Notes under the pieces: generated by a model
What the model saw: the letters and a program-made list of their open reading frames with translations, nothing else
The model's database searches: none
What the model was told of the DNA's origin: nothing
Part shown: positions 23,227-42,870 of the stretch, piece after piece
How the letters are laid out: every line of letters begins with the position of its first letter
Position numbering within the stretch: the first letter of the stretch is position 1
Position numbers and translations under genes: made by a program
NCBI GenBank assembly: GCA_002839495.1
Contig: PGYD01000008.1
Location: 1 to 43,522, forward strand
Reading direction: 5' to 3'
DNA from: Planctomycetes bacterium HGW-Planctomycetes-1
Lineage (GTDB): Bacteria > Planctomycetota > Phycisphaerae > Sedimentisphaerales > UBA12454
Length of the DNA stretch: 43,522 nt

Positions 23227-23907
23227 TTAACTTATCTCTGAAATAAGATACTTACCCAACTTGTCAAATTGTTTGCGGTACTTGCTGTGAAAAGGCAGTA
23301 ATCTTTGGTACGTCTTTACCTTAACTGTATCTTTTATTTCTCTGACCTGGATGGTTTTAGGGAGCCTTTTTTTGATTTTGTGAAAGGCTCCGACAAATAA
23401 AATCCCTTTTTCGTCAGGCCCAAGTGTTTCGTCTATTTTCTGGGCAATGAATGCATCTCTTTTATTCAACAGCATACCTTTTACCAGCTTATATTTTATA
23501 AATGCTATTATTTTTTTTGTCATCGATTTAGCCTGTGTTATAGCAAGTAATCTGTCATATTCTTTTTTCACCAGTTTAAAATCCTCGGTCTTCATCAGGA
23601 TAGCTCCTCTTTCGAGAAGCCTTAAAATCAACTGGTAATTTTTGCTTCCCGCTTTGGCTGTATCCTCAGCTATTTGTTTTCCTACCTCATCTCCAGCTAC
23701 CATTCCGTCCTGATATATTTTCATTCCATTGACGTCTATAGAATCAAAATAATCCACTATAGCATCCCAGAAACCCTCGACCGTTTTTCTATGTTTTGTC
23801 CAGATTTCCTCTCCCAGATCTCGAATGCCTCTTTTTGAGATATCTTTTGCCATAGAGCCAAGATCAGCACTTGTATGGATAACAGGGACATAAATCAAGG
23901 TTCTCAT
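23227..23907 (-). CDS. Uncharacterised gvp-locus protein, possibly TraB/PrgY-like fold
   Basis: 226-aa ORF, last gene of the gvp run; RDAFIAQKIDETLGPDEKGILFVGAFHKIKKRLP resembles the R-x-n-GA-H core of TraB-like proteins. Confidence 0.6.
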   Translation of the reverse strand: MRTLIYVPVIHTSADLGSMAKDISKRGIRDLGEEIWTKHRKTVEGFWDAIVDYFDSIDVNGMKIYQDGMVAGDEVGKQIAEDTAKAGSKNYQLILRLLERGAILMKTEDFKLVKKEYDRLLAITQAKSMTKKIIAFIKYKLVKGMLLNKRDAFIAQKIDETLGPDEKGILFVGAFHKIKKRLPKTIQVREIKDTVKVKTYQRLLPFHSKYRKQFDKLGKYLISEIS

Positions 23908-24267: not shown

Positions 24268-24531
24268 TTATGCCAATTTCCTGGCCTTTATAATCAAATC
24301 TGCTGTCTTTTTACGCACATTTGCAATAAAACGGCAATTCTTACAATCTATGCTTTTTTCATCATAATCCGGGCAGGAAAGAAGGACATTTACTTCCTGC
24401 TGAAGTTCTTCGGCAAATTCGGCTTTTTCCAATATCCCTTTGGCACTGTTTATTTTAGCAGTAATATCCTCAATCACCGGTTCCTGCTTTTGAAATATTG
24501 GACAGTTTATTTTGGCTCTTTCTTTAGACAT
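24268..24531 (-). CDS. Small Cys-motif protein of unknown function in gvp operon
   Basis: 87-aa ORF with SCPDYDEKSIDCKNCRFIANVRKKTADLI, in line with flanking gvp genes. Confidence 0.6.
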   Translation of the reverse strand: MSKERAKINCPIFQKQEPVIEDITAKINSAKGILEKAEFAEELQQEVNVLLSCPDYDEKSIDCKNCRFIANVRKKTADLIIKARKLA

Positions 24532-27023: not shown

Positions 27024-27275
27024 TTACATCTCCATTTCTTTTGCATTTTCTTCTGCATTTGCAATAGCATCCAATCGATCTAAAAGTTCACTTTCTTTTT
27101 TGGTATATTCCGCTTCGCTTATTTCATCCAACTCGAACTGTAATTGCAGCCGCATAAGCTCTTCTTTGATGCGCCCGGTATCATTTAATTCTTTATCAAC
27201 TGTTTCGTTGAGCTTTTCTCCCAACCAAACCACGCCTTTCAGTGGCGCAAGTAATATACTGTCGATTAAAAACAT
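27024..27275 (-). CDS. gvpG: Gas vesicle protein GvpG
   Basis: MFLIDSILLAPLKGVVWLGEKLNETVDKEL ... LMRLQLQFELDEISEAEYTKKESELLDRLDAI. Confidence 0.93.
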   Translation of the reverse strand: MFLIDSILLAPLKGVVWLGEKLNETVDKELNDTGRIKEELMRLQLQFELDEISEAEYTKKESELLDRLDAIANAEENAKEMEM

Positions 27276-27277
27276 TT

Positions 27278-28060
27278 TTAGTAATCCTCAGTATTAATGC
27301 TGATATTGACAAAATTAAACGGAGGCAGCGGCCCTACATAGTTGAATGTCACCTCTTGGCTGTATTTTTCATCTAATATTTGAACCTGCTGGTCAAAATC
27401 AGGTTCCTTTTCTTTTTCCACAAAAAAAGCGGCATTAATAATCATCAGTTCGCCATAAGTATCGTTTGTTTTGACCTCGGCTGCCAGGGGCGAGAGTGTG
27501 TCCAGAATATCCTCCCTGACAATCTCTTTTTCCCTTTGCAGAGCCTCCTCCACCATTCTTCCTATTTCTCTCCGTTGATTATGAGATTTTTCAGGAGCAA
27601 GTGCTGCAATTTTCACCTTTAACACCCTTATATCTTCATACTTTTCCAGGATGTCCTTGTAAACAATCCCTTCTTTAAATATTGCCTTAAGACTAATCTC
27701 GGTTTTGCCGGCAATACTGCCTAACAAATCTTTAAATCTATCGTGCTCTTTTTCCAGTATCCTCTTGACCTTATCTTCATCCTCAGCAACCGTGGCAAAT
27801 CTCACCGGCAGGACTGTATATTGGGCCATTGCCGTCTCAATAGCCTTTTCGTGGGCAATAGAATTCTCTCGCGAAACCCGGTATCTCCCGAGGGGAGCGT
27901 CACTGACTAACGCAGCTATACCATTAAAACAAATTGTATGCAGCTGGTCGCCACGTCCCCCGATTCCCAATGGCCCCAAAGACAGTTGCTTGTCTGAGTC
28001 TATAACGCAATATATATATTTGCCTTCCTTGGTGGCTGTATCCATCTCTATTTTTCCCAT
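27278..28060 (-). CDS. Gas vesicle protein GvpF/GvpL family
   Basis: GKYIYCVIDSDKQLSLGPLGIGGRGDQLHTI ... VLPVRFATVAEDEDKVKRIL ... NYVGPLPPFNFVNISI. Confidence 0.93.
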   Translation of the reverse strand: MGKIEMDTATKEGKYIYCVIDSDKQLSLGPLGIGGRGDQLHTICFNGIAALVSDAPLGRYRVSRENSIAHEKAIETAMAQYTVLPVRFATVAEDEDKVKRILEKEHDRFKDLLGSIAGKTEISLKAIFKEGIVYKDILEKYEDIRVLKVKIAALAPEKSHNQRREIGRMVEEALQREKEIVREDILDTLSPLAAEVKTNDTYGELMIINAAFFVEKEKEPDFDQQVQILDEKYSQEVTFNYVGPLPPFNFVNISINTEDY

Positions 28061-28815
28061 TCTTCCGGATAAATAACGATATTGACAAAATTAAATACAG
28101 GCAGTGGTCCTGCGTACATAAATTTTATCCTGTCTTTATACTCGTCGCCTAAATCATTCATAATGTTATCGAATTCTTTTTCTCTTCCCTTATCCACTAA
28201 AAAGGCGGCATTCATAAACATCTCATCGCCGATAGTATCATTGAGTTTGTGCTCGTAAGATGTCCTTCTGAGTTTATCTATGATTTCTTCAGCTTGTTTT
28301 TCTTTCTTTTCATCCAATGCCTGCTTGACCATTCGTCCAATGCCCATTTTTGCCTGCATATCATTGCTGTTTCTTTCTGCCAGGGCCTCTTTTAGATTTT
28401 TGATTGCCCCATTTTCTTTTACAATCTCACTGAAAATATTCTCCATGTTTTTCCATACACCTTTGACACCTAATTCTATTTTGTGATCCATATCCGTAAG
28501 GGCACTCTTAAACTCCCTGTACCTTCTATCCAGTAAATTTCTTACCTCTTCGGCACTGGAAGCAATTGTGCCGAATCGTACCGGAAGTACGCGGTCAAAT
28601 TCCTTCATTACTTCCTCGATTACCCTCTGGTGAGCTAACATGTTTTCTCGACTTGTAGCAATTTTAGTTGCCGGATAATTGCTTACTATCATGCTCAAAT
28701 CATCGTAACCAATCGTCAAAACCTCATCGCCCCTTTGGCCAATACCAATAGGGCCGAAATTACGCTCCTGTTTCGTCTCAATAATGCAGTAAATATATTT
28801 CCCTTCTTTTTCCAT
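28048..28815 (-). CDS. Gas vesicle protein GvpF/GvpL family
   Basis: From Met at 28815: MEKEGKYIYCIIETKQERNFGPIGIGQRGDEVLTI ... VLPVRFGTIASSAEEVRNLL ... MYAGPLPVFNFVNIVI. Confidence 0.93.
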   Translation of the reverse strand: MEKEGKYIYCIIETKQERNFGPIGIGQRGDEVLTIGYDDLSMIVSNYPATKIATSRENMLAHQRVIEEVMKEFDRVLPVRFGTIASSAEEVRNLLDRRYREFKSALTDMDHKIELGVKGVWKNMENIFSEIVKENGAIKNLKEALAERNSNDMQAKMGIGRMVKQALDEKKEKQAEEIIDKLRRTSYEHKLNDTIGDEMFMNAAFLVDKGREKEFDNIMNDLGDEYKDRIKFMYAGPLPVFNFVNIVIYPEEWEK

Positions 28816-28816
28816 A

Positions 28817-29920
28817 TCATCCCATCGTCGTAACCAGCATAGTATTCTTTTCAAAAGCTTCTTCGTTGAGGCAGCAGCCTTGGCCGTGCTCACCTTGATT
28901 GGATGCCCGGTAGTAATCAAGGAGTATCTTGTAGGCTCTGGTCATCTCGTCAAATTTCTGTTCTATATTAGGCGTATCGGGGTTTTTATCAGGATGACAG
29001 GTCATAGCGGTTCTGCGATGGGCTTTTTTGATTTCGACAGCAGTTATAAAATCATCCTTAAGCCCTAATTTTTCCTTCGCCCAGTTTATCTCATCAAACT
29101 GCGGCTTTTTAACTTCGAGGGTATAGAAACTATAGGGCGGAAGCGGGCCTACACATCTAAAGTTCAGCTTATCTTCAAATTCGTCATTGACCTGTTCTAC
29201 CTGCCGCTCAAATTCCTCCTGCCTTTTCTTATCTATAAGAAACGCACAGTTAAGCACCATTGTATCATCCATAAGGTCATGGCCCTTATAATTTTGGGCT
29301 ATTTCACCCAAGGCAGCCTGTATCCTGCCGGCAAGTATCTCTTTTTTCTTGTCTAAATGCCTCTTGACCAACACGCCGACTTTCATCTGGTCATCTATGG
29401 TAATGCCGCCTTCTTTATTTAACAGCGACTGTTTAAGCTGTTTTATTTCTTCTTCCCCAGAAACTTCCTGCAGAAAAGATTTAAGATCATTTAAGGTTGC
29501 CACAACATCAATCTCTATACTGTTCTTCGCCTGTTCGAAAATGTCTTTGATTGTTTTGTATCCCTTGGCTAAAATCTCTCTGGCTTCTTCGTCACTGCCG
29601 GCAAATGTCCCAAGTCTCATAGGAATAATGGTATGTTTGGTCATTACCTTTTCGATCAACTGCTGATGACTGACAAGCAGTCTTCCTAAGGTGTCTTTGG
29701 GCATATGGCTGTAATCGACTACTTCTGAATCGCTTACTACTGCGGATATATCCTGAAAAACAACAGTATAGGCTTTGTTATGAATTTCGCTGCTCTCTAC
29801 AATCTCTGCGGGACTTCTGGATGGGTAGATGTCATCAAGGGACACAATCTTGTCCAAATCAAAGGTTTCTTCTGCATTGGAGTTTATAATCCCGTAAATG
29901 TATTTCCCTACTTTACTCAT
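28817..29920 (-). CDS. GvpF/GvpL family protein fused to a C-terminal DnaJ (J) domain
   Basis: N-terminal GKYIYGIINSN ... IIPMRLGTFAGSDEEAREIL ... RCVGPLPPYSFYTLEV (GvpF/L); C-terminal LGLKDDFITAVEIKKAHRRTAMTCHPDKNPDTPNIEQKFDEMTRAYKILLDYY with HPD motif. Confidence 0.9.
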   Translation of the reverse strand: MSKVGKYIYGIINSNAEETFDLDKIVSLDDIYPSRSPAEIVESSEIHNKAYTVVFQDISAVVSDSEVVDYSHMPKDTLGRLLVSHQQLIEKVMTKHTIIPMRLGTFAGSDEEAREILAKGYKTIKDIFEQAKNSIEIDVVATLNDLKSFLQEVSGEEEIKQLKQSLLNKEGGITIDDQMKVGVLVKRHLDKKKEILAGRIQAALGEIAQNYKGHDLMDDTMVLNCAFLIDKKRQEEFERQVEQVNDEFEDKLNFRCVGPLPPYSFYTLEVKKPQFDEINWAKEKLGLKDDFITAVEIKKAHRRTAMTCHPDKNPDTPNIEQKFDEMTRAYKILLDYYRASNQGEHGQGCCLNEEAFEKNTMLVTTMG

Positions 29921-29932
29921 AACATTCCTTTC

Positions 29933-32068
29933 TTATTTGCCGTTTTGCTCTTTTAGCATTTTAAGTGCCTGGTCAAAATGCTGTTTTGAAACCTTAAGGT
30001 CTCCATCGGCACTTATTTTTTCCTTTGCAGAGTTACGGTCGATATATTCTCTTACCGCAAGCATAGAGGCCTTTCGGCAGACAAACTCGATATCAGAACC
30101 AGTTCTGCCATCGCTTTCTTTGGCCAACTTTTTCAAATCAACATTTTGGGCAAGAGGTTTATTCTTTGTGTGTATTGTAAAAATCTGTTCTCTGGTTTTT
30201 TCGTCTGGCGCAGGCAGCTCAAATATAAGGTCGAATCTGCCGCTTCGCAGCATTGCAGAATCAACTAAATCCAACCTGTTGGTAGCAGCTAAAACTACGA
30301 CACCTTTAAGCTCTTCTATCCCATCCATTTCCGTCAAAAATTGGCTTATTACTCTCTCGGTTACATGAGCGTCCGTAGAGCTTGACCCTCTTTTAGGCAC
30401 TATGCTGTCTATCTCATCGAAAAAGAGGATTGTCGGTGCAGCATGTTTTGCCGTCCTGAACGTTTCTCTTACTCCCCGTTCTGATTCGCCGACATAGCGA
30501 CTGATAAGCTGAGGGCCTTTGATTGAAATAAAATTGACGCCACTTTCATTAGCCACTGCTTTGGCTAAAAGAGTCTTGCCTGTTCCAGGTTTGCCATAGA
30601 GCAAAATTCCTTTAGGTGGGTTAGTGCCTGCCTTTTTGAATATGTCTGGATATTTAAGCGGCCATTCAACAGCCTCTTTGAGTTCCTGCTTGATATTTTC
30701 AAGGCCGCCAACATCAGACCACTTTACATCCGGCACCTCAACGAATACTTCCCTGATGGCAGATGGCTCGATATCCTTCATGGCCTCAAGAAAATTGTCC
30801 ATTGTTACTTCTAATTTGAGCAGGGCTTCGTAAGGAATCTCTGACAATTCAAAATCAATTGTTGGAAGAATTTTTCGCAAAGCCGACATAGCAGCTTCTC
30901 TGGCCAATGCCTGCAAATCCGCTCCAACAAAACCATGTGTAATGCTGGCTAATTTTTCAATATCAACGTCTTTAGCCAAAGGCATGCCTCTGGTATGAAT
31001 CTCTAAAATCTCTAACCGCCCGTTTTTATCAGGTATAGGAATAGAAATCTCTCTATCAAAACGGCCTGGTCGTCTTAAAGCTGGGTCTATAGTATTGGGA
31101 ATATTCGTCGCACCTATAACTATAACGTGACCTCGGGATTCCAAACCGTCCAATAAAGACAGAAGCTGGGCGACAACACGTCTTTCAACCTGCTTTTCAC
31201 CGCCCATATCTTCTCTCTTGGGTGCAATGGCATCAATCTCATCGATAAAGATTATAGCAGGGGCATGTTTCTGGGCATCCTCGAATACGCTGCGCAAGCG
31301 ACCCTCGGATTCACCGTAAAACTTGCCCATAATTTCCGGGCCGCTTATGCTGACAAAGTATGCATCGGTTTCATTGGCTACAGCTCGGGCGGTTAGAGTT
31401 TTACCCGTACCAGGTGGGCCATACATGAAGACTCCTTTGGGTGCTTCGATACCCAGCCTGTTAAACACTTCCGGGTATTTCAGAGGCAGCTCAATCATCT
31501 CTCTTATTCGCTGGACCTGAGTACCGAGTCCGCCAATGTCTTCATAAGATATTTTGGCCCTCTCAACTTTGCCTTCTTTTGACTTTACCCTTATCAGGGT
31601 TGTAGAGTTGACCGATACCACACCATCCGGTATCGTATCTTCCACCATAAAATCACAGGTCTTAGTGCCAAATAATCTCGCCCTTATTTTGTCACCGCTC
31701 GTTAAAGGCAGACCTTCTATGAGAGAGCCAATGTATTTAGCATCTTTGTCTTTTTGAAGCACCCCTCCATTCGTCAAGGGGGCAAGCGTGATTTTCTTGG
31801 CAGGTCTGCTTTCGCCTCTTTCGACCGTTATCTTTTCATCAAGACCAATCTTGGCATTCTCTCTTGTTATCCCGTCTATCTGAACTATTTTTTTTCCTCT
31901 ATCGTCGGCATAGCAGGGCATTACCTTGGCAGCGGTCTTCCTTTTGCCTTCTATCTCTACTGTCTGGCCCACCTCCAGGCCTAAATTCTTCATATCTTCA
32001 GGGTCTATCCTGGCAATAGCCCTTCCCACATCCTTAGGTAAAGCCTCCTTTACTTTAAATTGCTTCAT
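29933..32068 (-). CDS. CDC48/VAT-type AAA+ ATPase (N domain + two AAA+ domains)
   Basis: CDC48-N-like start ([35 protein letters not shown]), two Walker A ([22 protein letters not shown]), two Walker B ([24 protein letters not shown]). Confidence 0.95.
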
Positions 32069-32090: not shown

Positions 32091-33026
32091 CTAATTGAAC
32101 AGCTGGTTTTTAAAATCCGCCAATGTCTTTAATCCCTTGATTTCGTGGGGACACGAGGGAATAATCGTCGTTTTTAAGCCATTAAATTTCACTCTTATCT
32201 GGTCTATATACTTATCTTGTTCTTTTCTTTTTTCCCTGCAAAACTCACAGCCATCTGATTGGACAACGTTGTTTATCACCATTTGTCTGACCTTAATGCC
32301 AAATTTACCCAAATTACTTATCAGCCTGACAGTTTCCAAAACAGCCATATCTTCCGGAATCGTAACTGCTATAAATTCACACCTGTTTTGATCACACAGC
32401 AAATCTTCTATTCTTTTTACAGTTTTCTTCATAGAAAGAAGAAAATCATCGCCTTTATCCGGTTCATACTTGCCGGCAAATGTTTCAATCATATATCTGT
32501 ACTTCCATCTCATCTTTGCCATTACCTTGACCCAGTCATCCAATAGCTTCGGTGATGTTAAAAGTCTTAAAGCATGGCCTGTGGGTGCGGTATCAACAAT
32601 GTATTTATCGAACTTTGCCTCATCTATCAGGTCAATCATCGCCTTAAAGCCCATTACCTCATCCATACCCGGAATAGGCAGGGCAAAAACCGAATCAATG
32701 TCTTCTGTATCCAGGTTAGTGCCGGTTTCCACGATTTTCTTGATTTCGTCTTCGTGTTCTGTTTTAAATTTCGAAAGAGCGTTTTCTGCGTTTACTTCAA
32801 GAGCACTCAAATTTTTAACTCCCTTTATTTCTTTTGGCTCGCCATCAAGTTTCTGTCCCAGGCTATCTGCAAGCGAATGGGCAGGGTCGGTTGAAAAAAT
32901 CAACGTCTTAAAATCTTCTGCCAGATATATCGCCGCAGCGGAAGCACAGGTTGTCTTGCCTACGCCGCCTTTGCCGCCGAATAAAATCATCTTTAGAGAA
33001 GATTCTTTTAGCCCTTTTAATCCCAT
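32091..33026 (-). CDS. ArsA/GET3-type (deviant Walker A) ATPase
   Basis: [46 protein letters not shown] and [27 protein letters not shown]. Confidence 0.93.
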
Positions 33027-33124: not shown

Positions 33125-33670
33125 TCACTTTTTCACCTTAATCTCTAAGATGCCGTTTGCATAAGAAGAGACAAGCGTGTCTGTTTGCACCTTGGAAGGC
33201 AGTAAAATTTCCTTATGGTACTTTCTGTCTCCGGTTTGGGCTGAGATATCGAGGATGTCTTCTTTCAGGTCTAATTTTATATCAGCTTCGTTGACACCCG
33301 GCATTTCGGCATAGATTCGAATCTCCTGGTCTTCATCAAAGACATCCGTAAGAGGCTCTCTTTCTTCTTCGACCGTTGGGCCATGGGGAGTCTTTTTGAC
33401 ATTTCCAAACGATTCAACTACGGGTTTACCGCCTACCGCTGTCTTTATGGAAACACCAAATACGCCTTTCATGCCTTCTTTGAGATTGCTCAGGTCTATT
33501 TCGCCTTCCTTGTTGATTTCGCCACCAGCCTCTTTTAGTTTGGCGGCCAGGTCAACAAGGTTTCCAATACCATCCAATAGTCCTCCCAGACCAAGGCTCA
33601 ATTTCCCTATGCCAAAATCAATATTCAGCCCTTCGTTTTCTTTATCTTTTTTCTTTTTGTCTTTAGCCAT
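33125..33670 (-). CDS. gvpH: Gas vesicle protein GvpH (Hsp20/alpha-crystallin-like)
   Basis: PLTDVFDEDQEIRIYAEMPGVNEADIKLDLKEDILDISAQTGDRKYHKEILLPSKVQTDTLVSSYANGILEIKVKK: Hsp20 core. Confidence 0.9.
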   Translation of the reverse strand: MAKDKKKKDKENEGLNIDFGIGKLSLGLGGLLDGIGNLVDLAAKLKEAGGEINKEGEIDLSNLKEGMKGVFGVSIKTAVGGKPVVESFGNVKKTPHGPTVEEEREPLTDVFDEDQEIRIYAEMPGVNEADIKLDLKEDILDISAQTGDRKYHKEILLPSKVQTDTLVSSYANGILEIKVKK

Positions 33671-34034: not shown

Positions 34035-34292
34035 TTATTCTGCGGTTGCGACTTCCCGTTTTCGGACATAAGAAGTCACTTCCAGGGTATCGGTCAGTTT
34101 AATCTCATAAGTGTTTCTATCCTGGACTCTGCTGGGCAGGCCTAAAGATTTAATAAACGAGCTCTCTTCATAAATCTCGGCTTCACCTACCCAGCCGTCC
34201 TCGGATTTCGTTATTTTTATTACTTTTGCGTCCGTACCAAGAGTCTTTTTAAAAAAGCTCCTGATTGCTTCACTTACCTGGTCTATTTTCAT
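34035..34292 (-). CDS. gvpO: Gas vesicle protein GvpO (copy 1)
   Basis: WVGEAEIYEESSFIKSLGLPSRVQDRNTYEIKLTDTLEVTSYVRKREV. Confidence 0.88.
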   Translation of the reverse strand: MKIDQVSEAIRSFFKKTLGTDAKVIKITKSEDGWVGEAEIYEESSFIKSLGLPSRVQDRNTYEIKLTDTLEVTSYVRKREVATAE

Positions 34293-34687
34293 AATACTGC
34301 TCCTGTTATCTGTTTTGTGACCACACCTTTTCCTTTACACGTTAAACAGGGAAGGCCGCTGTTGCATTCTTTGCCCGTTCCTTTGCATGCCGTGCAGTTC
34401 TGAATTTCTTTACACTCTATTGTCACAACGCCCTTGCCCTTACAAACACTACAGCTAATATCCCTATTCAAATTGGCTCTGCCCTCTCCATTACAATAAG
34501 CACAGATAACAGCCGGCGCTGCAACTCTTACGGTTCCGTCACCTGAACAAATAGGACACCTTGCATTTCCTTTAGAAGATACAAGTCCGGCACCTTTGCA
34601 AAATCCACATCTATAAACCACCTTATCAAGGACCTCGCCTTTTTGGCCGACCTTTTGGCTTTTCCAGTCAAAAGTTTTCCATTCCAT
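34289..34687 (-). CDS. DnaJ-type zinc-finger (CxxCxGxG repeat) protein without J domain
   Basis: Repeated CGFCKGAG / CPICSGDG / CAYCNGEG / CSVCKGKG / CTACKGTG / CLTCKGKG. Confidence 0.85.
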   Translation of the reverse strand: MEWKTFDWKSQKVGQKGEVLDKVVYRCGFCKGAGLVSSKGNARCPICSGDGTVRVAAPAVICAYCNGEGRANLNRDISCSVCKGKGVVTIECKEIQNCTACKGTGKECNSGLPCLTCKGKGVVTKQITGAVL

Positions 34688-34709: not shown

Positions 34710-35015
34710 TTAATAATTTATAGCCATTGTCTTAAGCGGCCTCGTTGGCACGCTTCTATGAGTTTTAATTTTCTGCTCCTCATATATTTCTTTTTGTAGT
34801 TTTTTTATTCGCAGGTAAGCACTGTCTAATTGCCTTTTGGCCCTGCTTGTTCTCTTATTTAACGCAAAGACTTCTTTTTCTAATCTATCCTTTTCTCTTT
34901 CAAACACATACAAGTCCAGATGGCTTGAGCGTTGTACCTTCGGGATAGACCTCGCACCTATAGAATGGATGCTTTTTATATTCCCAATACCTTGAGTTTG
35001 CATTATTCCCTTCAT
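34710..35015 (-). CDS. Small basic coiled-coil protein, GvpV-like
   Basis: SIGARSIPKVQRSSHLDLYVFEREKDRLEKEVFALNKRTSRAKRQL resembles cyanobacterial GvpV (YLDLYKL...KxRL..EL); next to gvpN. Confidence 0.55.
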   Translation of the reverse strand: MKGIMQTQGIGNIKSIHSIGARSIPKVQRSSHLDLYVFEREKDRLEKEVFALNKRTSRAKRQLDSAYLRIKKLQKEIYEEQKIKTHRSVPTRPLKTMAINY

Positions 35016-35036: not shown

Positions 35037-36044
35037 TTATTTTGCACCAACTAAGCTTTCTATTTCTTCCTGACTTAAAACAACATTCTCCTTGCCGGCT
35101 ATTGGAGGAATATTTATGTTTTTTCGTGTCCCGAGTTCTCTTGCCACAAGTTCACTCACTATTTCTTTGACCCTGTTTTGGTTTGTCTTTGAGCCGACAC
35201 GGCTTGTCTCAGAGGCTAATATATCTTCACACATTTGCGTAAAAACCACGTTCGCTTTAAGCAGATTAAGATTCTGCACCTTAAGGGTTTTCGCAATCAT
35301 AATACAGCCTCGAACGGTAGGAGCGAATTCGCACTTTCCAGACTCTCTCAAGCCTCGCACAATATTGACTATTATCTCTGCGTGTGATTTAGAGAGTTTG
35401 GATTTTGCCTGGACGATAGCCAGTTCAGTATCATAGTCAAAGTGGTCTAAGTCCATTGTTATCATTCTGTCTCTTAAAGCGTCCTGGCTGCGATGCACCC
35501 CCGCGTATTCCTCAGGGTTGCTCGTGAAAATAGCAGTAAAGTTTGGGTCAACCCTTAAATATGGGTCCTCGCCGCCGCGACCGACCGGCAAATCCATCAT
35601 CTTCTCCTGTAGGATGGACAGGAGAATATTATTAGCTTCCGGCCGGGAGCGTGTGAACTCATCATAAATCATCGTAAATCCATACTTGCAGGCGACAGTC
35701 AGACGATTGTCCACCCAACGCTTGACCATATCCTCTTCTGTTTTTAGCACCCTGGAGATAAATCGGTCCACAACTTTTCTGATTCTATAGCCATGCTCGC
35801 CGCCGACCAAATCCGACGTAGTGAACTCTTCGTCTCCGTGAATCATTACCACCGGCCTTTCAATCTTGCTTGCTATATGCATAGCAAGTGTTGTCTTGCC
35901 GGTGCCGGAAGGCCCCCTAAAGTGAACTGGAAAGCCTGCCTTAATATAGGAAAGAGCCCTGTTGGTAATATCCTTTATGTACTTTGTCTCCACGAAGTCC
36001 GGCATCGGGGCCGGTTCCAATACTGTTGTCATTTCATCAATCAT
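35037..36044 (-). CDS. gvpN: Gas vesicle protein GvpN (MoxR/AAA+ ATPase)
   Basis: FVETKYIKDITNRALSYIKAGFPVHFRGPSGTGKTTLAMHIA ... MIYDEFTRSRPEANNILLSILQEKMMDLP. Confidence 0.95.
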   Translation of the reverse strand: MIDEMTTVLEPAPMPDFVETKYIKDITNRALSYIKAGFPVHFRGPSGTGKTTLAMHIASKIERPVVMIHGDEEFTTSDLVGGEHGYRIRKVVDRFISRVLKTEEDMVKRWVDNRLTVACKYGFTMIYDEFTRSRPEANNILLSILQEKMMDLPVGRGGEDPYLRVDPNFTAIFTSNPEEYAGVHRSQDALRDRMITMDLDHFDYDTELAIVQAKSKLSKSHAEIIVNIVRGLRESGKCEFAPTVRGCIMIAKTLKVQNLNLLKANVVFTQMCEDILASETSRVGSKTNQNRVKEIVSELVARELGTRKNINIPPIAGKENVVLSQEEIESLVGAK

Positions 36045-36081: not shown

Positions 36082-36276
36082 TTATAGCAGCGATTGCCAC
36101 CATCTAAATCTTTCGCCTAATTTTTCCCAAATTTTGCGTGCTTTTTCCAAATCTGCCCTTGTTTTCTTTTCCCTATTTTCAAAGTTTTCTTTCAAGGACT
36201 GTAGCTTACTCAGAGCCTCTTTGCTCTTTCTGATGTAGCCTTCTCTGGACAAATTTGGTCTGGCTGCGTCTTTCAT
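36082..36276 (-). CDS. Small coiled-coil protein of unknown function in gvp operon
   Basis: 64-aa ORF, SKLQSLKENFENREKKTRADLEKARKIWEKLGERFRWW; overlaps the start of the upstream zinc-finger ORF. Confidence 0.5.
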   Translation of the reverse strand: MKDAARPNLSREGYIRKSKEALSKLQSLKENFENREKKTRADLEKARKIWEKLGERFRWWQSLL

Positions 36277-36617
36277 TTTGAAACAACTCCTTTACCTTTG
36301 CACTTAAGACAGGGCATTGCACTATCTATTGCTGCACCCGTGCCTTCACATTTAGGGCACCATTCAGTTGGGCCTTTGGGAGCTGTAACCACACCTTTAC
36401 CGTTACAAACTGTGCAGGTAATCCGTGTGCTATGATAAACCCCGCTGCCTTTGCAAAAAGCACATCTAATCACCGGCTCTACGACCTCAACTTTACCTGT
36501 GCCGCCGCAGACCTGGCAGGTTGCACGTTCACTCAGTAAGTCAAAGGGGTCTTTTCCCGCACCTTTGCAAAAAGCGCACGTTATCTGGGCCGTAGCAGAT
36601 GTTGTTGTCTGGCTCAT
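36273..36617 (-). CDS. DnaJ-type zinc-finger (CxxCxGxG repeat) protein without J domain
   Basis: CAFCKGAG / CQVCGGTG / CAFCKGSG / CTVCNGKG / CPKCEGTG / CLKCKGKG. Confidence 0.85.
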   Translation of the reverse strand: MSQTTTSATAQITCAFCKGAGKDPFDLLSERATCQVCGGTGKVEVVEPVIRCAFCKGSGVYHSTRITCTVCNGKGVVTAPKGPTEWCPKCEGTGAAIDSAMPCLKCKGKGVVSK

Positions 36618-39552: not shown

Positions 39553-39759
39553 TTATGCTGCTGTTGCTGTCAAACCGATAGCTTCGGCATACTTCAAGTA
39601 GGTCTCGACTGAAGCCGCTACAACTCTGGCTTCGATGGCAAGTATTTCAATACCTACCAAAGAGACTCTTACCCAGGCATCAACTACGATACCCTTGTCC
39701 AGAATCCTGTCAATGACTTCGACCAGACTGCTCGAACCAATTGCTTTTTCTACTGCCAT
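39553..39759 (-). CDS. gvpA: Major gas vesicle structural protein GvpA
   Basis: From Met at 39759: [75 protein letters not shown] Shine-Dalgarno just upstream. Confidence 0.97.
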
Positions 39760-39794: not shown

Positions 39795-39834
39795 AATAAA
39801 AAATAAAAAAACGCACGCTACATACGTGCGTTTA
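39795..39834 (-). terminator. Intrinsic-terminator hairpin in the gvpA leader (candidate attenuator)
   Basis: Stem AAAACGCACG/CGTGCGTTTT (39808-39817 with 39825-39834), followed on the minus strand by TTTTTTATTTTTTAT. Confidence 0.65.
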
Positions 39835-40285: not shown

Positions 40286-40936
40286 TTAAACCGTGGTTAA
40301 CCCTTCGCGAATAGCATACTTAGTCAGGTCTGCGAGGTTATCAATTTGAGTTTTTTCCATAATCTGCCTGCGGTTTGCTTCGATGGTCTTAACGCTCAGG
40401 CCAAGTTGGGCAGCAACCTGTTTTGCCGAATGGCCCTCGGTCAAAAGCTGAAGCATCTGTTTTTCTTTCGGAGTCAGGATTTCCTTAAACCTATTCGCTG
40501 AATCGAAAATAGCATTTTTTGTGATGCCCTCCAGAACAATATTTGCGATTTGGGGACTGAGGTACGACTGATTGTTCATAACTATTTTAATGGCCCGGAC
40601 TAAATCTTCAAATACACACTCTTTGAGCATATACCCCGATACGCCTGCCCTTACCATATCCAGCACAAACTCCCTATTGGCATGTACTGACAAAGCCAGA
40701 ACCTTAGTTTCCGGCAATTCCTCCCTGATTTGACGTGTGGCTTCAATACCGTTTAATACGGGCATGCTTACATCCATAATAACCACATCAGGCCGAAGCT
40801 GACGGGTTAATTCCACTGCGTGCAATCCGTTATCGGCTTCGCCAACCACTTCCATATCACCTTGTTTTTCAATCAAAGAGGCAATTCCCTGCCGGAGTAT
40901 TCCATGATTATCCGCCACTAAAATCCTTATGCTCAT
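40286..40936 (-). CDS. NarL/FixJ-type response regulator (REC + LuxR HTH)
   Basis: RILVADNHGILRQGIASLIEKQ ... PDVVIMDVSMPVLNGIEATRQIR ... LTPKEKQMLQLLTEGHSAKQVAAQLGLSVKTIEANRRQIMEK. Confidence 0.95.
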   Translation of the reverse strand: MSIRILVADNHGILRQGIASLIEKQGDMEVVGEADNGLHAVELTRQLRPDVVIMDVSMPVLNGIEATRQIREELPETKVLALSVHANREFVLDMVRAGVSGYMLKECVFEDLVRAIKIVMNNQSYLSPQIANIVLEGITKNAIFDSANRFKEILTPKEKQMLQLLTEGHSAKQVAAQLGLSVKTIEANRRQIMEKTQIDNLADLTKYAIREGLTTV

Positions 40937-40938
40937 AA

Positions 40939-42870
40939 TTACCCCCTATCGAATGGTTTTTCTGCATTTTTTCCGCGTTTTATTGGTGCTATAAGCCTGA
41001 CATGTGTGCCCTGGCCGGGTTTAGACTTTATCTCAATACTGCCGCCAAGATAGCTCAGCCTCTCGCGAATACTGAAAAGCCCGAAGCCTCCGGTTTTGTT
41101 CAACTGCGGCGATGGTATGAAACCGACTCCATCATCTGTAACCTCAATTCTTACCTTATCGTTGTCCCTGCTGACCGAAACCTTAACATTTTTGGCTTGT
41201 GCGTGTTTGACTATGTTGACCAGCAGTTCCCGCACCGCTCTGTATAACAGGGCACGGACATCATCGTCCAGAGGTTTTGGCTGCTTGTCATCCTCAAATT
41301 CAGTGCGGATTTTGTGTTTTTGCTCAACTTCCTCGTGGAGCCATTCTCTTATAGCGGCTTCAAGCCCTAATTCATATAAAGTGGGTGAGCTCAAATCAAA
41401 TGTCAATGTGCGTGTGTCGCCTATTATCCGGTCAAGATTCCGGTAAATTTCATCTAAGGATTTGGTAAGCTCTGATGGTAAATTTTCCTTTGGCAATGAG
41501 CCTAAATCAATCTTGAAAAGAATTAACTGCTGAGTAATCTGGTCATGCAGTTCAACGGCCAGACGTCTGCGTTCACGCTCTTCTGTTAGAGACATTTCCG
41601 ATGTAAGGTCCCGAAGCCGTTTTTGGTAGTCTAACAGCCTTTTCTGGGCCTGCCTTTGTGCTGTGATATCCCAGAAAACACCTAATATTCCGATTGTCTC
41701 ACCTTTTTCATCTTTCACGGGTGTTTTGACGGTATGAACGAATATCTCTTTTCCTCGTTGTACATATTTGTCGTTAATGTCCTCAATCTTGCCGGATTTC
41801 ATTATCCTTTTGTCATCGGCTCTATATTTCTTAGCTAATTCTTCTGGAAAGAAGTCATAATCTGTCTTGCCTCCAATTTCTGCTGCCTTGATTTTTAAAT
41901 CCACCGCATAGTTCTCATTGCAGGATATATAAACGGAGTTGGTATCCTTGAGGTATATTTTTTGAGGCAGGTTCTCGAGAAGCGTTTTATACTTGTTTTC
42001 ACTGACCTTCAGAGCTTTTTCAGCCTTTTTTCGTTTAGCGCTTTCAATTAATTCCCACTTGCCTTTGCGTCTGATAAGGGCCGAGCCGTGACTACCAATT
42101 ACATCTAAAATTTCAGATACACCACATTTATTTAAGGGGTAGGAACAAATTGCCAGCATCTGATAGTCATCAATCACACTGTCCACCTGTTTCTCATAAT
42201 CAGCAAAACACTTCCAGTCCTTTGCTTCAAGCCAGCCTGTATTACCTGCTACTCTTATGCCATTGAAACCGGCGGAAACAGCATGGGCGTTTCTTTCAAT
42301 CCAGGCTTTGAGAACTCTTTGCAGGTCAAAAACATCGTCTTGGAAATACCATTGCTTATGAGAGATGATTTCTATCTGGGCTTTTTCCAAGTACCGCTCA
42401 AAATCAGGTACAGCAACACTTAAAGCGTCCTTAGTTTTTTTTACTGTAAGAGGCTCAGAAGTTACCCACATACAGAACTCGTTGTTTTCCATGCCAGCCT
42501 TAAAGTAGGGAACAAGAATATCAATCAAATCCTGTTCGGTTTCATAGAACAAACAAAAGTGTGCGCCCCATGGAACATCGCCTAAGATATCGATCCCCGT
42601 TTTTCTATTAGATTGGTAACTCCTGTTCAGCATCCGTGCGAGGCCCTGACCTGCCCCCCCCCCCATAACAAAAAGGCTAAATAAATTATTTTTTAAGAAG
42701 AGGGACTTTGCTAACCCCGTATAACCGGCTAATCGGAATATTTGAGGAAAATTACAAAAAATTTGCCGATAGGTTCCCCTATTTATGTGCCCCCAAGTGC
42801 CGCCCCAAGGCCGCCTTTTTTCCGACACATATGTAACTGCTACATCAGCAATACACCTGTTCCCCGCCAT
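40939..42870 (-). CDS. MEDS-PAS-HisKA_3 sensor histidine kinase (start uncertain; candidate Mets at 42870, 42666, 42633)
   Basis: MEDS-like GAHFCLFYETEQDLIDILVPYFKAGMENNEFCMWVTSEPL; PAS KYKTLLENLPQKIYLKDTNSVYISCNENYA; HisKA_3 ERRRLAVELHDQITQQLILFKIDL; HATPase DDGVGF and GGFGLFSIRERLSYLGG. Confidence 0.88.
   Translation of the reverse strand: MAGNRCIADVAVTYVSEKRRPWGGTWGHINRGTYRQIFCNFPQIFRLAGYTGLAKSLFLKNNLFSLFVMGGGAGQGLARMLNRSYQSNRKTGIDILGDVPWGAHFCLFYETEQDLIDILVPYFKAGMENNEFCMWVTSEPLTVKKTKDALSVAVPDFERYLEKAQIEIISHKQWYFQDDVFDLQRVLKAWIERNAHAVSAGFNGIRVAGNTGWLEAKDWKCFADYEKQVDSVIDDYQMLAICSYPLNKCGVSEILDVIGSHGSALIRRKGKWELIESAKRKKAEKALKVSENKYKTLLENLPQKIYLKDTNSVYISCNENYAVDLKIKAAEIGGKTDYDFFPEELAKKYRADDKRIMKSGKIEDINDKYVQRGKEIFVHTVKTPVKDEKGETIGILGVFWDITAQRQAQKRLLDYQKRLRDLTSEMSLTEERERRRLAVELHDQITQQLILFKIDLGSLPKENLPSELTKSLDEIYRNLDRIIGDTRTLTFDLSSPTLYELGLEAAIREWLHEEVEQKHKIRTEFEDDKQPKPLDDDVRALLYRAVRELLVNIVKHAQAKNVKVSVSRDNDKVRIEVTDDGVGFIPSPQLNKTGGFGLFSIRERLSYLGGSIEIKSKPGQGTHVRLIAPIKRGKNAEKPFDRG
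42645..42659. repeat. 15-bp direct repeat flanking the gvp locus (right copy)
   Basis: CCTGACCTGCCCCCC, identical to 23132-23146; followed by further C residues. Confidence 0.6.

Follow-up and report, generated by a model that had tools for sequence, protein, structure and literature searches.

The stretch of DNA analysed here, called the window (43,522 nucleotides from Planctomycetes bacterium HGW-Planctomycetes-1), carries a gas-vesicle (gvp) gene cluster in which one GvpF/L gene appears to run on, in the same reading frame, into a DnaJ-type J domain. This raises the question of whether the two domains truly belong to one protein and, if so, what a J domain would do on a protein of gas-vesicle assembly. 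An earlier note had claimed such a fusion and had proposed profile searches, a structure prediction and a survey of GvpF/L proteins as checks. The gene, which we call gvpF-J, and its parts are located as follows.

28817..29920, minus strand: gvpF-J, a GvpF-type GvpF/L domain with a C-terminal J domain, 367 aa (PF06386 and PF00226 over cut-offs; conserved in 10 genomes)
29123..29908, minus strand: GvpF/L domain, residues 5-266 (PF06386; fold match to the GvpF crystal structures 6l5d and 4qsg)
28901..29098, minus strand: J domain, helices I-III, residues 275-340 (PF00226 at 285-335; AlphaFold helices; match to 5nro_B)
28988..28996, minus strand: HPD motif, residues 309-311 (read directly; invariant in 10/10 fusions)

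Profile searches of this open reading frame, whose ATG start lies behind GAAAGGA, bear out the claim that a GvpF/L protein is fused in frame to a C-terminal J domain. PF06386 (GvpL/GvpF) matches residues 5-266 over the full length of the profile (positions 1-244 of 245) with an E-value of 2e-53 and 182.5 bits, the curated cut-off being 23.6 bits, and PF00226 (DnaJ) matches residues 285-335, at about 28916-29068, with an E-value of 1e-13 and 51.2 bits, the curated cut-off being 27.8 bits. The HPD motif lies exactly where the earlier note had put it. In the AlphaFold model, helix I begins just upstream of the J segment given there (about 28907-29068). Of the NCBIfam models, GvpF outscores GvpL (77 against 53 bits), which indicates a GvpF-type affinity. 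PF06386 and PF00226 are the only families over cut-off; the protein is therefore not a class A DnaJ, which would have a G/F region, a zinc finger and C-terminal domains on one chain.

An AlphaFold model built with nine sequences (mean pLDDT 80) places the GvpF fold and the J-domain helices (residues 275-284, 294-307 and 319-340) in one chain, with the HPD motif in the loop between helices II and III. When this model was compared with known structures using Foldseek, GvpF crystal structures ranked first (E 1.4e-14 to 6l5d and 1.8e-13 to 4qsg). The C-terminus matched J domains, including the DnaK-bound 5nro_B, with an rmsd of 1.5 A over 55 columns and 40% identity; the individual E-values of these J-domain matches are weak because the domain is short. 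Both families were also found in the PDB by a sequence profile of gvpF-J. R22, Y25, K26 and R27 of E. coli DnaJ are residues with a role in its J domain. Where DnaJ has the basic helix-II residues R22, K26 and R27, the aligned window protein has K, R and R; the position equivalent to Tyr25 is a histidine, and helix IV is absent. Motifs that contact Hsp70 are conserved.

A fusion known from a single contig could be the product of an assembly artefact or of accidental read-through joining two genes. We consider the chance of this negligible: gvpF-J is a single open frame, and independent assemblies as well as a finished plasmid share the position of the joint, after a conserved GPLPPYSF-type motif. 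Our analysis turned up nothing that counts for such an artefact. A misassembly or frameshift near 29.07-29.1 kb, named beforehand as one of the findings that would undo the claim, is ruled out by the independent genomes with the same fusion. The survey of GvpF/L proteins, centred on Planctomycetota, the phylum of the window, found this architecture in ten distinct genomes from two phyla, nine Planctomycetota and Octadecabacter arcticus 238. An independently assembled Phycisphaerales MAG (L001, PLLM01000050.1; counted with G637 as one genome) encodes the complete fusion, 71% identical to the window protein. Identity between these two is higher in the linker and J segment (79%) than in the GvpF/L part (69.5%), and for the J segment dN (0.11-0.12) is well under dS (0.85-1.3, near saturation). 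The fusion occurs in 3 of the 28 gvpF/L-bearing genomes in a sample of 399 Planctomycetota genomes, and in 7 of 13 in a 400-genome sample of the window's class. In O. arcticus 238, a cultured alphaproteobacterium, the fusion (WP_015497776.1) lies on the finished plasmid pOA238_160. A plasmid survey found the fusion in this species only, and the viral contigs searched contained no relative of it. In one genome (G599) the fusion gene, L089:1133-2350 on the minus strand, is interrupted by a TGA in frame that separates the two halves of its GvpF/L part, and is either a pseudogene or affected by a sequencing error.

Nine of the ten fusions were long enough to enter a tree of 86 GvpF/L domains, where all nine fall on one side of one branch (support 99/91; 98% of bootstrap trees) and thus form an orthologous subfamily rather than a one-off. 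The best explanation of this pattern is that the fusion arose once and was then passed on by vertical descent and transfer; it is both old and conserved. In the gvp regions examined, no J domain standing alone was detected.

The window's gvp cluster is about 16.5 kb long, runs on one strand from 39.76 to 23.2 kb and has non-gvp genes on both sides. Its gas-vesicle genes are gvpA with its paralogues, gvpG, gvpK, genes resembling gvpN and gvpO, and five GvpF/L genes including the fusion. Also encoded are two ATPases, one CDC48-type and one ArsA-type, an Hsp20/GvpH-like protein and a pair of stand-alone DnaJ-type zinc-finger proteins. By NCBIfam score, the two GvpF/L paralogues just downstream of the fusion prefer the GvpF model and two more distant ones prefer GvpL. 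The genes that matter here are listed below.

27024..27275, minus strand: gvpG (PF05120)
27278..28060, minus strand: GvpF/L paralogue adjoining gvpG (profile match)
28048..28815, minus strand: GvpF/L paralogue that starts one base after the stop codon of the fusion (ORF list, profile match)
29933..32068, minus strand: CDC48-type AAA ATPase, directly upstream of the fusion (TIGR01243)
32091..33026, minus strand: ArsA-type ATPase (PF02374)
33125..33670, minus strand: Hsp20/GvpH-like small heat-shock protein (PF00011 over cut-off, NF041800)
34289..34687, minus strand: stand-alone DnaJ-type zinc-finger (CXXCXGXG) protein without a J domain (PF00684 over cut-off)
35037..36044, minus strand: gvpN-like AAA ATPase (PF07728; homologous to a gene annotated gvpN in O. 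arcticus)
36273..36617, minus strand: second stand-alone DnaJ-type zinc-finger (CXXCXGXG) protein without a J domain (PF00684 over cut-off)
39553..39759, minus strand: gvpA, major shell protein (PF00741)

Several other features of this region were observed, all on the minus strand. A 226-aa protein without a Pfam match (23227-23907) recurs near gvp genes in many clusters of relatives and is a candidate for an unnamed gas-vesicle accessory protein. Two small proteins without Pfam matches (24268-24531 and 34710-35015) are conserved in the related gvp cluster of L001, and the first has weak relatives in G140 and G210 as well. A strong terminator-like hairpin with a T run (39809-39833) precedes the gvpA start (39759) by about 50 bases and is possibly a leader or attenuator of the gvp cluster. 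Immediately before the cluster, and in its orientation, come genes for a sensor histidine kinase and a response regulator (40286-42870), which may regulate it.

If the J domain works as such, it needs an Hsp70, and we therefore examined the chaperone genes in and around the gvp clusters. An Hsp70 gene is found among the gvp genes in six of the nine fusion clusters long enough to judge (G327, G057, which is cut by a contig end, G719, G436, G509 and G407); the 16 clusters of 12 kb or more that lack the fusion have no such gene. Fisher's exact test, which ignores kinship, gives p = 0.0005 for this association, a value that overstates it because the clusters counted are related. The six genes lie at the following positions, mostly right after a gvpA paralogue.

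L042:6625-8601, minus strand: Hsp70 gene inside a Planctomycetota gvp cluster
L096:3936-5759, minus strand: the same
L097:3630-5597, minus strand: the same
L098:1518-3413, minus strand: the same
L053:3-632, minus strand: the same
L095:15492-17366, plus strand: the same

Five clusters share the gene order gvpK-gvpF/L-gvpA paralogue-hsp70. Where they are not cut by a contig end the gvp Hsp70s are near full length (PF00012 1-596). In their sequences the nucleotide-site motif is conserved and an arginine stands at the position of R167 in E. coli DnaK; the interdomain linker is likewise retained wherever its region is present. In a tree, five of them group together in a clade separate from the housekeeping DnaK of each genome concerned (98/99), and five of the six may reflect one event. 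The G327 protein is a long branch whose membership in that clade is neither supported nor rejected (AU p 0.44). A second Hsp70 of G599, considered as another gvp-linked copy, was ruled out, as it sits elsewhere in the genome and belongs to another Hsp70 clade. DnaJ-type zinc-finger genes recur in many planctomycete gvp clusters. Their proteins are commoner in fusion clusters (7/9 against 4/16, p 0.017, the clusters being related and kinship ignored).

These data bear on whether the J domain still works with an Hsp70 at all. It could instead be a structural relic or a protein-interaction module that no longer does so, a reading that draws on the strong divergence of the J domains outside the HPD motif and on the lack of an Hsp70 gene in the window's gvp cluster. 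Yet the HPD motif is retained in all ten fusions despite their very divergent sequences, no part of the protein is more conserved between the window and L001 than the J segment, and among the gvp clusters compared Hsp70 genes are confined to those with the fusion; we judge a relic very unlikely. The earlier claim that the J domain works with Hsp70 is well supported by the invariant HPD motif, the match to DnaK-bound 5nro_B and the distribution of the Hsp70 genes. The genome of the window's organism (94% complete) encodes one full DnaK, one GrpE and one classical DnaJ, the latter two near each other on the same contig, and gvpF-J carries its only other J domain. Since no Hsp70 is encoded in the window's gvp cluster, a point that the earlier note does not mention, gvpF-J would have to work there with the housekeeping DnaK.

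Published work describes GvpF as the main partner of the shell protein and proposes that it chaperones this protein (PMC11445434, PMC9501494); the binding of GvpF to GvpA is transient, and GvpG later displaces GvpF (PMC11445434). From this published binding, together with the GvpF-type affinity of the domain, we infer that a nascent gas-vesicle subunit is the client of gvpF-J. We consider it probable that gvpF-J is a client-specific J-domain co-chaperone of gas-vesicle assembly, which hands shell subunits to Hsp70 in the manner of HscB and HscA. Like GvpF in other organisms, the GvpF-type domain would bind gas-vesicle shell protein, either GvpA or one of its paralogues; the C-terminal J domain would then recruit Hsp70 and trigger ATP hydrolysis. 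Clamped by Hsp70, the hydrophobic subunit would afterwards pass to GvpG and the assembly complex. The partner would be the dedicated paralogue from the gvp cluster in most relatives, and the single housekeeping DnaK with GrpE in the window's organism. For gvpF-J the GvpA binding, the stimulation of Hsp70 ATPase activity and the order of events are all predicted steps. Several observations count against this reading: the clusters of the window, G637/L001 and O. arcticus have no gvp-linked Hsp70, Tyr25 is replaced by histidine, helix IV is missing, and a classical DnaJ is also present in the window's genome.

The main rival of the co-chaperone reading assigns the J domain a role in disassembly or quality control. 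Here Hsp70 would be recruited, along with the CDC48-type ATPase, to remodel or dismantle Gvp complexes, for example in the release of GvpF/L from GvpA, in quality control or in vesicle turnover. Auxilin-type J proteins do use Hsp70 to take complexes apart, and the gene for the CDC48-type ATPase immediately precedes the fusion in the window and in G637/L001 and is nearby in G407. The transient GvpF-GvpA binding, superseded by GvpG, would fit as well (PMC11445434). However, gvp clusters that lack the fusion carry the CDC48 gene just as often, so its presence does not track the J domain, and we regard a dismantling role as unlikely.

Returning to the co-chaperone reading, we compared gvpF-J with the known systems it resembles. 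It shares with GvpF (Anabaena 6l5d and Microcystis 4qsg; B. megaterium and Halobacterium) its fold, its family, a gvp cluster with gvpG and a GvpF-type NCBIfam score, but the known GvpF structures end where the J domain of gvpF-J begins. J-domain sequence and fold are those of DnaJ (class A), and stand-alone CXXCXGXG zinc-finger proteins are encoded in the same gvp cluster; unlike DnaJ, the gvpF-J chain has no zinc finger or C-terminal client-binding domain, and a classical DnaJ is encoded separately in the genome. HscB/Jac1 are class C J-domain proteins with a dedicated Hsp70, HscA, and the client IscU. Like them, gvpF-J couples a J domain to a client-binding domain, and most of its relatives have a dedicated Hsp70 paralogue within the gene cluster of the client. 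The differences are that the client module of gvpF-J is GvpF/L, that its J domain is C-terminal and that the window's cluster has no dedicated Hsp70. The O. arcticus protein is an orthologous fusion within a gvp cluster, but it is 26% identical to the window protein, is annotated only as GvpL/GvpF family and has no Hsp70 among its gvp genes. O. arcticus has been described as forming gas vesicles (PMC3646047). The Octadecabacter genome paper does not mention DnaJ. A GvpF with a J domain was not found in the open literature searched, although automatic domain databases may list the combination. Papers that join the term gas vesicle with DnaJ, DnaK or Hsp70 are apparently stress or expression studies. 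We would class the protein as a J protein of class-C-like type with GvpF as its base, its domains being of known kinds and their combination new to the open literature searched.

The finding touches the question of how the very hydrophobic, aggregation-prone GvpA stays competent for assembly. That GvpF is a chaperone of GvpA has so far only been proposed (PMC11445434); the fusion and the Hsp70 genes in the same clusters are independent genetic evidence that GvpF belongs to a chaperone pathway, and they name its partner. The presence of an Hsp70 gene in the gvp clusters of several relatives suggests that Hsp70 takes part in building gas vesicles, a role made testable by a point mutation in the HPD motif and a simple ATPase assay. 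The fusion could also aid the expression of gas vesicles as imaging reporters. We see about an even chance that gas-vesicle systems of one branch possess an Hsp70 machine of their own, in which GvpF, the chaperone of the shell protein, is itself the J protein and acts alongside a gvp-dedicated Hsp70 paralogue and DnaJ-type zinc-finger proteins encoded separately. If so, assembly of the shell would depend on Hsp70 in this branch, with a dismembered DnaJ spread over the gvp cluster.
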